Shown one piece after another: positions 32,208 to 36,634 of a stretch of DNA of 57,127 nucleotides. A program made the translations under genes and the position numbers. The DNA is from Desulfotomaculaceae bacterium. GTDB lineage: Bacteria; Bacillota; Desulfotomaculia; Desulfotomaculales; Pelotomaculaceae. The stretch's first letter is position 1; every line of letters begins with the position of its first letter. The stretch lies in assembly GCA_028696455.1 (NCBI GenBank), contig JAQVGZ010000009.1, forward strand, positions 1-57,127. The letters are read 5' to 3'. A model generated the notes under the pieces. It was not told where the DNA came from, ran no database searches, and was given only the letters and a program-made list of their open reading frames with translations.

Positions 32208-32235
32208 TACAAATATGATTAAGAGGCTATTAGCG

Positions 32236-33117
32236 ATGAGAAATATCAAACCAGGTGATGTTGTAGGGCGCAAGTCCTACAACTGTGATGTGTTCTTTAA
32301 AGTTATAGAGTTTTTCATAAATGATAGTGGTAAAAATTACGCATACTTAAAGGGTCTTAACCTAAGGCTATGTGCTAGTGCTCCGGAGGAAGACCTGGTC
32401 AGAATCGAACCGAGTGCCCTGACTAAAAACCTACTAGAGCAAGCAAAAAGCAACAACGAGCACATGAAACGCATTTTTAGCCGGCGGGTCAGGGAGCGTG
32501 AGATAATTCTAGGTAGGGTTGTCCCGAAGGAGCGGGGCAAAGGGCCGCTGGACGGGTTTGATATACCAGGCACGGTATTGCATATTGACGGGGATAGCGA
32601 TTATCTAGATCTTTGTTTAACAACTTATAGACAGTTGAGTATACCGGCTAACGGCTACTGTATCGAAGAAGCCAGGCAGCCGGAGATGATAGAAGCTCTT
32701 CTTAATAAGCACAACCCGGACTTACTGGTCATAACGGGTCACGATGGCTTTATCAAGGGTAGAGTAAATTTTTCAGATATTAATAATTATCATTCATCCA
32801 AATATTTTGTTGAAGCTGTAAAGGCTGCGCGGCGTTATGAAAAGAGCCGCGACGATCTGGTTATTTTTGCAGGAGCTTGCCAGTCTCACTATGAATCGAT
32901 ACTCGCAGCCGGCGCAAACTTTGCCAGTTCCCCTCAGCGCGTAATGATCCACGCTTACGATCCGGTTTTTGTAGTGGAAAAAATATCATACACATCTATT
33001 TATGATCGAATTTCCATAAAGGATATCATAACTGGGACAATTACAGGTATTGACGGTATTGGTGGGATGGAAACCCGTGGTAAATACCGTATGGGAATTC
33101 CGAGGTCTCCATATTAA
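32236..33117 (+). CDS. yabG: Sporulation-specific protease YabG
   Basis: About 293 residues from ATG 32236 (MRNIKPGDVVGRKSY), which has GAGG 9 bases upstream; an in-frame ATG at 32215 is the alternative. The family pattern is clear: GTVLHIDGDSDYLDLCL, LLVITGHDGF, FAGACQSHYESILAAGANFASSP and the C-terminal GIDGIGGMETRGKYRMG. YabG is a late mother-cell cysteine protease that trims coat proteins and, in Clostridioides, germination proteins. It precedes the split protease gene by 52 bases. Confidence 0.93.
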   Translation: MRNIKPGDVVGRKSYNCDVFFKVIEFFINDSGKNYAYLKGLNLRLCASAPEEDLVRIEPSALTKNLLEQAKSNNEHMKRIFSRRVREREIILGRVVPKERGKGPLDGFDIPGTVLHIDGDSDYLDLCLTTYRQLSIPANGYCIEEARQPEMIEALLNKHNPDLLVITGHDGFIKGRVNFSDINNYHSSKYFVEAVKAARRYEKSRDDLVIFAGACQSHYESILAAGANFASSPQRVMIHAYDPVFVVEKISYTSIYDRISIKDIITGTITGIDGIGGMETRGKYRMGIPRSPY

Positions 33118-33169: not shown

Positions 33170-33745
33170 ATGAATAAGCTCTTGAGCGCTCTTAAAAAAA
33201 ATCGAACAAAGTTTCTTGGTCTAAAAAATGTGGTGGGTATTGGTGTGGGTTACAAACAAGCTGGCGAAAATGATACTGGTCAGCCAGCTTTTATCGTTTA
33301 CGTTGAAAAAAAACTGCCCAGGACAGATTTGTCACGCAGCCACATCGTGCCAAGAAAGGTTGATGGGTTAGAAACTGATGTAGTAGAAATAGGTGTTGTA
33401 AAGATGCTTGGGGTGCGAACGGCGCGTGAGCGTCCCTGCCAACCGGGAATGAGCATTGGTCATTACCAGGCTACTGCAGGGACTATTGGGGCTGTGGTAA
33501 GGGACCGGGAAACAGGAGAGTTAATGATTCTTTCTAATAACCATGTTCTGGCTAATGGCTCCAGCATTCAAGAGGCTAGGGCCAAAACAGGTGACCCAGT
33601 TCTACAGCCCGGCGCTTGCGATACTTCATGGAAGCAGAATATACCTCAGGTGAAGTGGCCAAGGCGCCGGATTTTTTTATTAATGAACCTGTTTTCGGAC
33701 AAGGTATGTTGGAATAAATTTTTATGGGGGTGTTTTTTTGAATAA
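33170..33745 (+). CDS. Trypsin-like protease, N-terminal part, interrupted by element
   Basis: Starts at ATG 33170 with CGGAGGA 9 bases ahead. Residues 1-148 are the N-terminal half of a chymotrypsin-fold protease: GLKNVVGIGVGYK, a FIVYVEKK strand, GTIGAVVRD and the catalytic His in LSNNHVLAN (His 125), ending GDPVLQPG. After that the frame reads 43 unrelated residues encoded by the inserted element and stops. The Asp and Ser of the triad are on the right-hand part beyond 35554, so this product cannot be an active enzyme. See the element and findings. Confidence 0.85.
   Translation: MNKLLSALKKNRTKFLGLKNVVGIGVGYKQAGENDTGQPAFIVYVEKKLPRTDLSRSHIVPRKVDGLETDVVEIGVVKMLGVRTARERPCQPGMSIGHYQATAGTIGAVVRDRETGELMILSNNHVLANGSSIQEARAKTGDPVLQPGACDTSWKQNIPQVKWPRRRIFLLMNLFSDKVCWNKFLWGCFFE
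33599..33622 (+). repeat. Left attachment-site repeat
   Basis: This 24-base segment matches 35557-35580 at 20 positions, with the core TACAGCCCGG (33603-33612) identical. The reading frame of the core is the same at both ends (Leu-Gln-Pro-Gly). Confidence 0.8.
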
Positions 33746-33890
33746 AAAATTGATGGTTTTCAATAATGAGCGGATTGCGGTTCTGAATGGTAAGGGGAAG
33801 ATAGATGATATGATTGTTTTTCTGTTGTCCAGAAAGTTGGAGAAGATATTATCGAAAAGTGAAGCAGTTCAAGAAAGACAGGGGAAGTGA
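33738..33890 (+). CDS. 50-aa protein upstream of and coupled to the recombinase
   Basis: TTG 33738 (or ATG 33753) follows a GGGGGTG site. The product has 50 residues: a short beta-like start (KLMVFNNERIAVLNG), a helix (KIDDMIVFLLSRKLEKIL) and a charged tail. The stop is one base from the recombinase ATG, so the two are translated together. It could be a recombination directionality factor or a regulator, but no family is recognised. Confidence 0.5.
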   Translation: MNKKLMVFNNERIAVLNGKGKIDDMIVFLLSRKLEKILSKSEAVQERQGK

Positions 33891-33891
33891 T

Positions 33892-35532
33892 ATGTTGAAC
33901 GCCAGCAGAAAGCTGGTAGCACTATACGCCAGGCTTAGCGTTAATGAGGGCGGGGAGCGTGACGAGAGCCTGGAAACGCAATGTGATATGCTGAGAGGTT
34001 TTATAGAAAAAAACGGTCTAGGAAATTACAAACAATATGTGGATAATGATGAATCAGGCGTGTACTTTGACCGCCCGGGACTTATTCAATTAATTAAAGA
34101 TATAAAAAGCAACCTTATTGACGTGGTGGTGGTAAAAGATCTGTCCCGGTTAGGAAGAAATAATGGCGAAACGTTAACATTTCTTGATTTTCTTACAGAG
34201 CATAATATACAATTGATTTCCATTATTGATAACTACGACAGCTATGCGGATGATGACGAAATTATTGGCATCAGAACCTGGGCTAATGAACACTACTGCC
34301 GCGACATTTCTAAAAAAGTGCGTGCTAATTTAAGGAGAAAAATACAAAATGGTGAATACCTTGGCCGGCCGCATTTCGGTTACTTGAAATCCAGCCATAA
34401 AAAAAACAGGCTGGTAGTTGATCCGCGCTATCAAAAAGTAATACAGATGATTTTTGATATGTATATAAATGGTTGGGGCTACCGGGCACTGGCTGATTAC
34501 ATTCAAAGTATGAGAATACCCACACCCAGCCAGGATAAAAATTATGCCGGGGCCAAAAAAACCGATCGCTGGAACGAGCAGCACATTAGACGGATTATTA
34601 TGAACCGGGTCTATTGTGGTGATACGGTCCAGGGCGTAAGTGAAAAGGTATCTTTTAAATTAAAGAAAACCCGGCGGCTGCCGCCAGAGCGGTGGGTAGT
34701 AGTAGAAAACACTCATGAGGCGATAATTCCCAGGGAGATATTCGAATTGGCGCAGGCAGTCAGAATAAAAAGATGGCGAGAGGGAGCAGGAAGAAAAAAG
34801 AAAAAGGGAAACAAGGCGAACCTTTTTACCGGTTTTTTAGTCTGTGCCGCATGTGGTGCCTATCTTGTGCATAAAAAGAAGAATAATCGTCCTGCCGGCT
34901 ATATTTGCGGCAGGTACAATAATTTCGGGAGAAAAAGCGGTGGCTGCAAAAGCCATCACATTGAGGAAGATAAATTAGTCAATCACTTGATTGAGGACAT
35001 TAAAACAATGGCTGGGGAAATGGACCTTCGAAGTCTTTTGGCTAAGCAGTATCGCAAGGGTTTTTATAATTCCGCAGCCCAAATAAAAAAGCAGATTAAA
35101 GAGCTGGAAAGCAATAGAGCAGAGAAAAGGCGCCAGCTGAAAGCTGTATACCTGGACCGGCTCAAAGGGAACATTGACGAAGGGCTTTACTTTGAGGTTG
35201 CCACAGAGATCGGAAAAAAACTTGCTGCTGATGAGGAAGGTATATTCAAGCTTCGAGAAGATCTGGTCAAAACCGGACAGTTGAAAGAAAACTTACAGAA
35301 AATTTACTCAATGCAGCTTAAATTAAATAAAGACGATATTGATAGGTTTTTTTTAGAAAAGTTTATTAAAAAGATTATTGTTATAGATGAAGGAGAGGAG
35401 ATAAATCAGATTGTCATGGAAAAATACGGTCTGGATATGGTTTTTAACAAAGAGCAAACAGTGGGATTGTTGCAAGGCAGAATAAGGCTAATCATTTTAT
35501 ATAACCTATCATCTGCAGAGCAAGAACAATGA
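33892..35532 (+). CDS. Large serine site-specific recombinase
   Basis: About 546 residues from ATG 33892 with AGGGGAAG ahead. The resolvase domain has the catalytic Ser in YARLSVNE (Ser 16) and the conserved VVVKDLSRLGRN. The recombinase domain follows (NGEYLGRPHFGYLK, RIIMNRVYCGD), then a zinc ribbon (CAACGAYL...YICG...GGCKSHH) and a coiled-coil tail near 400-500. Relatives include TnpX, CcrAB and SpoIVCA, which cut skin DNA. It is the only enzyme on the element at 33603-35570, on the same strand as the gene it splits. Confidence 0.93.
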   Translation: MLNASRKLVALYARLSVNEGGERDESLETQCDMLRGFIEKNGLGNYKQYVDNDESGVYFDRPGLIQLIKDIKSNLIDVVVVKDLSRLGRNNGETLTFLDFLTEHNIQLISIIDNYDSYADDDEIIGIRTWANEHYCRDISKKVRANLRRKIQNGEYLGRPHFGYLKSSHKKNRLVVDPRYQKVIQMIFDMYINGWGYRALADYIQSMRIPTPSQDKNYAGAKKTDRWNEQHIRRIIMNRVYCGDTVQGVSEKVSFKLKKTRRLPPERWVVVENTHEAIIPREIFELAQAVRIKRWREGAGRKKKKGNKANLFTGFLVCAACGAYLVHKKKNNRPAGYICGRYNNFGRKSGGCKSHHIEEDKLVNHLIEDIKTMAGEMDLRSLLAKQYRKGFYNSAAQIKKQIKELESNRAEKRRQLKAVYLDRLKGNIDEGLYFEVATEIGKKLAADEEGIFKLREDLVKTGQLKENLQKIYSMQLKLNKDDIDRFFLEKFIKKIIVIDEGEEINQIVMEKYGLDMVFNKEQTVGLLQGRIRLIILYNLSSAEQEQ

Positions 35533-35553
35533 AAACGCTTATGTTTTTTCCAT

Positions 35554-36135
35554 GTGGTTTTACAGCCCGGGCCTTACGATGGGGGGACAATGAAAGACCG
35601 CATTGGAGTACTGTACCGCTATGTGCCACTAATAAAAAGTGTGACTAGGTCCGATTGTCCCGTAGCTTCTGCAATTGCTCGGGGAAGTAGCATGCTCCTT
35701 AAACTGGTAAAGCATGATTATGAAATGCGCTTTTATAAAAGCTTTGCCGCTGAAAATATTGTGGACTGCGCTCTGGCCAGGCTGGACTCTAAAGACCTGG
35801 TGGTTAATTCTATTCTGGAAATAGGTGAAATAACAGGGGTTGCCGATATTCAGCCGGGCAAGCGGGTGCAAAAAAGCGGTAGAACTACCGGCCTGACCAG
35901 TGGTGTGGTTAAGTCAATTGGTACTACTTTACAGGTGGAAATGAAAGAAGACGAAAAGATATGGTTTTCAGACCAAGTTGTAACAGATATGCCTTCGCAA
36001 CCTGGTGACAGCGGGGCGCTGGTTTTGGATGAAGCACAGAAAGTTGTTGGTCTATTGTTTGCAGGCTCGGATAAGCTAACAATCTTTAATAGAATTACTA
36101 ATATTGTCCATAAGCTGGGCATTGAGTTTGTTTAA
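35554..36135 (+). CDS. Trypsin-like protease, C-terminal part, beyond the element
   Basis: The frame is open from a GTG at 35554 with no ribosome site, so it is unlikely to be made alone. From Pro at 35572 it holds 187 residues: PYDGGTMKDRIG, the catalytic Asp in VDCALARLD, and the catalytic Ser in QPGDSGALV. With the 148 residues at 33170-33613 this gives a 335-residue protease with His 125, Asp 213 and Ser 295. No frameshift, internal stop or missing triad residue is seen in either half, which argues against simple decay. Confidence 0.82.
   Translation: MVLQPGPYDGGTMKDRIGVLYRYVPLIKSVTRSDCPVASAIARGSSMLLKLVKHDYEMRFYKSFAAENIVDCALARLDSKDLVVNSILEIGEITGVADIQPGKRVQKSGRTTGLTSGVVKSIGTTLQVEMKEDEKIWFSDQVVTDMPSQPGDSGALVLDEAQKVVGLLFAGSDKLTIFNRITNIVHKLGIEFV
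35557..35580 (+). repeat. Right attachment-site repeat
   Basis: Partner of 33599-33622 with the identical core TACAGCCCGG at 35561-35570. Mismatches are at positions 4, 15, 16 and 20 of the 24. Confidence 0.8.
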
Positions 36136-36226: not shown

Positions 36227-36634
36227 ATGAAATTAACAACAGTCGTATCAGGTGATATGGCCTTAGCTTTTTTAGGAGAAGATATACCTGCTATTGGCCC
36301 AAGGTTCAAAAGCAAAGAAGCTGCAGTTAAGGCTGCTCGTCAATATCTAGAAAAGATCAGCGAGATCTCGGAAGAGGGTCAAAATACAGCGTTTCAAATT
36401 GTTTTGAGCAGGCAGGTGGATGGCCTATACTCATTGGTTATAGACAGTGCTAGCCAGGTTGTTGGTAGACTTAATAATCTTGATGAATTGTTAGTTAAGC
36501 GTTTTCGTAGAGGCCTAAACAGGAAGTTATTTATACTGACCTGCTTTGTTGATAGTGTCGAAGGACAGGAGTGCCTGGTACTTACCGAAGGACTGGGAGC
36601 GGTTTTTTACGCCCCTGGTACAATTGTGGGATAA
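36227..36634 (+). CDS. Hypothetical protein, 135 aa
   Basis: From ATG 36227, with CGGGAGG 8 bases ahead (the frame above has no site). The product reads as a small alpha/beta protein (KLTTVVSGDMALAFLGEDIPAIG, then helical KSKEAAVKAARQYLEKISEI). No family is recognised and no signal or membrane helix is seen. It overlaps no neighbour and is 37 bases before the next ORF, so it may be in one unit with the split protease. Confidence 0.55.
   Translation: MKLTTVVSGDMALAFLGEDIPAIGPRFKSKEAAVKAARQYLEKISEISEEGQNTAFQIVLSRQVDGLYSLVIDSASQVVGRLNNLDELLVKRFRRGLNRKLFILTCFVDSVEGQECLVLTEGLGAVFYAPGTIVG

Follow-up and report, generated by a model that had tools for sequence, protein, structure and literature searches.

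The window analysed here, a stretch of 57,127 nucleotides from a Desulfotomaculaceae bacterium (contig JAQVGZ010000009.1), contains a gene for a trypsin/Nal1-like protease that lies next to yabG and is interrupted by an element of 1,958 bp; all features of the window given below are on the forward strand. The sporulation peptidase gene yabG (32215..33117), whose presence the initial annotation had recognized, is upstream and scores 344.8 bits against TIGR02855 (cut-off 270.4), with a match to PF05582 at E 1e-117. On the other side is a conserved downstream gene (36227..36634) that is found beside the protease gene in relatives and serves, together with yabG, as a host marker. The left half of the protease gene (33170..33610) comprises 147 codons, matches the Nal1 N-terminal domain (E 1e-5) and holds the catalytic His in the motif LSNNHVLAN (33530-33556); its reading frame continues into the element as far as 33745. 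The right half (35557..36135) holds the putative catalytic Asp, near 35764 in NIVDCALARLD (35755-35787), and the putative catalytic Ser, in QPGDSGALV (35998-36024), and matches Trypsin_2 (E 2e-4) and Nal1_C (E 1e-3). These three motifs lie at the positions reported for them initially, and the direct repeat of 24 nt with 20 identities that had been described at the two ends of the insert was found again at 33599-33622 and 35557-35580, with a spacing of 1958. No other pair in the whole window is identical at 20 or more of 24 positions at a spacing of 1-4 kb, making this pair 1 of 164 million positions compared. Joining the halves reproduces the predicted open frame of 335 residues, free of stops and frameshifts whichever cut point within the repeat is used. 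In a comparison with solved structures, the joined protein matches NARROW LEAF 1 over residues 22-153, and its Ser region matches Streptomyces-type serine proteinases.

Between the halves, where the initial annotation had placed a recombinase element, there are only two ORFs and no cargo. The larger (33892..35532) encodes a protein of 546 aa with Recombinase (E 1e-26), Resolvase (E 1e-25) and Zn-ribbon (E 8e-12) domains (PF07508, PF00239 and PF13408, respectively); these three domains and a length of about 500 aa or more identify it as a large serine recombinase. TnpX provides the nearest solved catalytic domain, and the best named profile, NF041201 (XisF), gives 115.9 bits, far under the family cut-off of 375. 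The smaller ORF, which did not figure in the initial annotation, begins with TTG, encodes 50 aa (33738..33890) and lies directly 5' of the recombinase gene. It is conserved in sister elements, preceding the recombinase gene in each of the 12 whose upstream DNA was read, and its product is predicted to form a beta-hairpin and a long helix, although the model is weak (pLDDT 68). In position and size the 50-aa protein resembles CD1234 and GirX, the small factors of skin and gin discussed below, and it is a candidate recombination directionality factor. The five elements of the window's family share a conserved block upstream of this excision operon, TGTTTTCGGACAAGG-N10-GAATAAATT (33690..33720 in the window), which is a putative promoter. 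Phage structural or replication genes are absent from the two-ORF element of the window, and the ORFs scanned in sister elements are metabolic or conjugation genes.

Attachment sites and the predicted excision

To define the crossover we compared the 13 elements in which both ends are present. In the window, attL (33585..33638) has a host arm on the left and an element arm on the right of a core GG at 33611-33612, and attR (35543..35596) has an element arm on the left and a host arm on the right of a core GG at 35569-35570. The GG core is found in all 13 elements. The arms that flank it on the element side are inverted copies of one sequence, approximately TTC(C/A)AT..AGT..CACA.CC, and agree at 13-22 of 26 positions (mean 16.5, compared with 6.7 for shuffled arms). 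The direct repeat proposed initially thus stands as to coordinates and identity, but not as the unit of exchange, which this comparison narrows to the GG dinucleotide. Joining at GG opens the frame through DP(V/I)LQPGPYDGG, with rare substitutions, in 13 of 13 elements, and the same uninterrupted sequence is present in intact relatives, so that a split coding sequence is restored in frame by precise joining. An uninterrupted homologue with the PYDGGT continuation, for which the initial annotation had advised a search, was found in G001, which belongs to the same genus, and in the majority of genomes of the order. When the core used by a large serine recombinase is non-palindromic and its two copies are in direct orientation, the outcome is excision, not inversion.

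Several sister elements carry metabolic cargo. A Zn-type alcohol dehydrogenase gene, absent from the window, is present in four elements of its family; the element of G039 carries genes for an iron alcohol dehydrogenase, an aminotransferase and an ABC transporter, and similar ORFs are found in G051. A TraG-type gene is present in the element of G070. In G051 (C19:52000-69000; L040), where the cargo resembles that of G039, the recombinase gene is at the left end of the element, by the left protease half, whereas in the other elements it is at the right end. The largest distance between protease halves, 90.5 kb, was observed in G047 (C1:122015-212476; L160, L161, L162, L076, L037), and this stretch contains many metabolic, RHS-like and transposase-like ORFs and, as read from the ORFs, hydrogenase-like genes. 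Since the att sites of G047 are intact and in direct orientation, excision would delete the whole 90.5 kb.

In two genomes, G011 (C97; L164:1) and G305 (C16; L163:1), a contig starts exactly at the core (CAGCCCGG and GG) and the left protease half is missing from the assembly, as if the assembler had met a fork. We do not claim a fork between excised and integrated forms in these two genomes, given the missing left halves.

Recurrence, descent and selection

Among 113 genomes of the order, we found the right half of the protease gene in 106, and in most of these it belongs to a single frame of about 340 aa. Fourteen of the 113, distributed over four families, have the gene split at the same codon, and there the right half is a frame of about 190-217 aa with the same starting codon. 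Thirteen genomes, all of them split, each have one copy of an orthologous recombinase gene (E < 1e-120, 50-73% identity); in the fourteenth split genome, G017, the contig stops inside the recombinase gene, leaving a fragmentary copy. None of the genomes with an intact protease gene has an orthologue, and screening 398 genomes sampled from the phylum revealed no carrier outside the order.

Such a split could also be produced by an ordinary site-specific mobile element that has its att site in the protease gene by chance, in which case the gene would be knocked out and the halves would be intact because the insertions are recent. The patchy presence of the element within genera, the cargo and the TraG-type gene of some elements agree with this account; the distribution of the recombinase and the lack of cargo in the window do not. 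Across the 113 genomes of the order, no orthologue occurs at any site other than the protease gene. In a search of 84,980 species genomes (one per species), the ten best matches, 49-73% identical, each fell in a known split genome, and the next matches dropped to 34% identity or less. Phages, plasmids and viral contigs gave only distant relatives, with at most about 33% identity among the matches listed, on which basis we reject a recent phage source of the recombinase; no excised or circle junction was seen in the viral contigs.

The pattern of descent bears on the same question. Within the window's clade, the branching of the recombinases mirrors that of a host tree based on yabG plus the downstream gene, and the synonymous divergence of the recombinase agrees with that of host genes in the pairs G013/G003 and G000/G002. 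This co-divergence is at odds with recent insertion. Descent has not been only vertical, however: between G039 and G072, pS is only 0.30 for the recombinases but 0.57-0.69 for host genes. The recombinases are thus much the closer pair, a clear horizontal signal which favours an ordinary mobile element and indicates that the element has also moved between genera. The element can also be lost. G001, which is nested in the split clade as sister to the window's genome, has an intact protease gene without a scar, so the element has left precisely at least once. In G066 (C70; L077), an intact relative of the split G065, the right half is about 30 residues shorter than usual (160 versus 191 aligned codons).

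Had the divided gene been a casualty of insertion, relatives with the same split might show decayed right halves, a possibility raised initially; none is decayed, and the right halves of the 14 genomes contain 0 stops. In the split pairs G013/G003 and G000/G002, respectively, the right half has dN/dS values of 0.08 and 0.07 and the left half values of 0.12 and 0.04, within the range of intact pairs. The right halves of G013 and G003 differ at 75 nucleotides and 17 residues, yet 5000 simulations of neutral drift of the same 75 differences gave about 52 residue changes, with a minimum of 38, and 92% of the simulated sequences contain a stop. As judged from these comparisons, both halves are under purifying selection (dN/dS 0.04-0.12), as had been suggested from the window alone, which implies that the detached right half is still used. 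Together with the co-divergence, this low dN/dS in the detached half leads us to regard a chance insertion by a mobile element as unlikely.

Selection on two open and conserved halves would also be expected if they were translated separately and worked as a two-chain protein, so that excision would be needless. We consider this highly improbable, given that neither half has the full set of catalytic residues, that the attR arms show no ribosome-binding site ahead of the right half, and that intact relatives make a single chain. Because the catalytic residues are divided and no such site is seen, rejoining of the gene when it is needed would be the simplest account.

A probable link to sporulation

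The suggestion that the split gene is connected with sporulation gains support from three sources: a sigma-K-like promoter of the protease gene, a CATA -10 motif on the excision operon of seven relatives, and joint decay with yabG. Of 36 loci, 29 have the motif GCATANNATG 5' of the protease start, where Markov shuffles predict 0.05, and AC is usually found 17 nt before CATA; we take this to be the sigma-K arrangement known from B. subtilis (AC, 16-17 nt, CATA---TA). Upstream of yabG, CATATGATA or CATATTATA is present in much of the window's family. In the other three families, GCATAT precedes the ribosome-binding site of the 50-aa ORF by 14-18 nt in all seven elements read. Counting against the sporulation reading, the window's clade has the CATA motif on neither the excision operon nor the protease gene, the sigma-K-like protease motif being missing in the window and its two congeners. 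In place of GCATAT, the window's family has the conserved block described above, in the form TTTTCGGACAAGG-N10-GAATAAATT. A GGACAA motif, part of this block (33690-33720) in the window's family, recurs in most elements of both groups, and resembles the core of SpoIIID sites.

The fates of the protease gene and yabG are also associated. Both are missing in G080 and G085, and both are decayed in G086 and G092. In the phylum sample, 118 genomes have both genes, 36 the protease only, 87 yabG only and 157 neither (Fisher p 8e-16 over 398 genomes, which are non-independent); a perfect tie across the phylum is contradicted by the 36 and 87 genomes that have one gene alone. An intact sigK was found in 12 of the 14 genomes checked, the window's included. 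In the literature accessible to us, we found no account of the element or of a sporulation role for this protease.

Taken as a whole, we consider it probable that a skin-like element is excised to rebuild the protease gene, and that this happens in sporulation; our confidence in excisability alone is higher. We infer that excision takes place, that its trigger is a mother-cell sigma factor and that the protease acts on spore proteins. Excision would most likely occur in the mother cell during sporulation, a timing suggested by the sigma-K-like promoter of the protease gene and its decay together with yabG. In this model, a mother-cell sigma factor would turn on the 50-aa ORF and the recombinase gene, and the recombinase, aided by the 50-aa protein, would recombine attL and attR at GG, releasing a circle and rejoining the protease gene in frame. 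The restored gene would be transcribed from its own promoter or from that of yabG, and the insert would be kept in the forespore and hence in the germ line.

Alternatively, the element may be a reversible switch outside sporulation, excised at random or upon another signal in mixed populations, with the joined gene selected in the excised fraction. The yin element of C. botulinum is excised at all time points (PMC10747680), the block before the excision operon in the window's clade is a putative promoter of no assigned class, and the G011 and G305 contigs start at the core as an assembly fork would have them do. However, that fork is not established, as both left halves are missing, and the sigma-K-like promoter and the co-decay with yabG point to sporulation. 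We regard such a switch as quite improbable, and prefer excision in the sporulating mother cell.

Comparison with known gene-splitting elements

Judged by its structure, the element would work like skin, gin, yin, vfbin, vrin and SP-beta in spsM: it encodes a serine recombinase, its att sites combine a short direct core with inverted repeats, and it splits a coding sequence that precise joining restores. The skin element in sigK (B. subtilis SpoIVCA; C. difficile CD1231 and CD1234, PMC5025042) likewise places a recombinase inside a gene-splitting insert, and shares the short att core, precise in-frame joining and a small excision factor, for which we have a candidate here; CD1234, the directionality factor of the C. 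difficile skin, has 72 aa (PMC5025042). Its target is another gene, sigK, which is a mother-cell gene as the protease gene probably is, and it differs in size, 48 kb in B. subtilis (PMC517825) versus 1.96 kb here; unlike skin, the present element has no phage genes. The analogy with SpoIVCA and skin drawn by the initial annotation therefore stands for the gene-splitting insert that carries a recombinase, but does not extend to sequence: the recombinase is not SpoIVCA-like, being only 24% identical to that of the split sigK of G003, which was used for the comparison in place of B. subtilis SpoIVCA itself.

That split sigK is one of two observed, in G003 (Pelotomaculum terephthalicicum JT) and G013, and points to a skin-like element in Pelotomaculum. 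In G003 (C43; L171:1060-5783), the parts of sigK are ~4 kb apart, match TIGR02846 positions 8-119 and 108-226 and have between them, on the opposite strand, a different serine recombinase of 500 aa; in G013 the parts lie on two contigs (L172, L173).

The gin element in gerE of B. cereus, which is excised in sporulation, is non-phage like the present one and pairs the recombinase GirC with a small factor, GirX, of 6.5 kDa (PMC5595907). Yet gin has 28.6 kb, three recombinases and a recent spread from strain to strain (PMC5595907), whereas here there is one recombinase, inherited across genera. The recombinase of yin, in yabG of C. botulinum V73, has the same three Pfam domains, and its target is a sporulation protease gene, as would be the case here; there, however, yabG itself is split, in one strain and by a prophage-like element (PMC10747680), while here it is the neighbour of yabG, in 14 genomes. 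SP-beta in spsM (PMC4191935), vfbin in spoVFB and vrin in spoVR have a mother-cell gene rebuilt by excision, as is proposed here. SprA and SprB suffice in a reduced SP-beta construct (PMC4191935), but SP-beta is of prophage origin and its two-gene form was made in the laboratory, whereas the two-gene form found here is natural. The fdxN element of heterocyst-forming cyanobacteria, excised in a terminal cell type by XisF, supplies the best named recombinase profile, but its cut-off is missed by a wide margin, and both phylum and target are different. What is new here is the target gene, the minimal size, the lack of phage genes and a recombinase clade of its own.

Few targets of sporulation-linked rearrangement are known (sigK, spsM, spoVFB, spoVR, gerE and yabG), mainly from Bacillus and Clostridium and mainly carried by prophages. 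To these, our analysis adds a protease gene by yabG, which a non-phage element interrupts in 14 genomes from an order of anaerobic spore formers. More tentatively, these elements may represent a separate, non-phage lineage of programmed DNA excision, in which a recombinase family became domesticated at a single protease gene and has since been passed down across genera. The form seen in the window would be a two-gene self-excising cassette, whereas other species would have metabolic cargo in the element, which reaches 90.5 kb in G047, and would lose it from the mother-cell genome whenever they sporulate. With only two genes, the window's element would be a minimal excision system of natural origin, and the reasons for the persistence of such inserts can be tested directly in this order, where split and intact genes can be paired, selection on both halves can be measured and some carriers are in culture.
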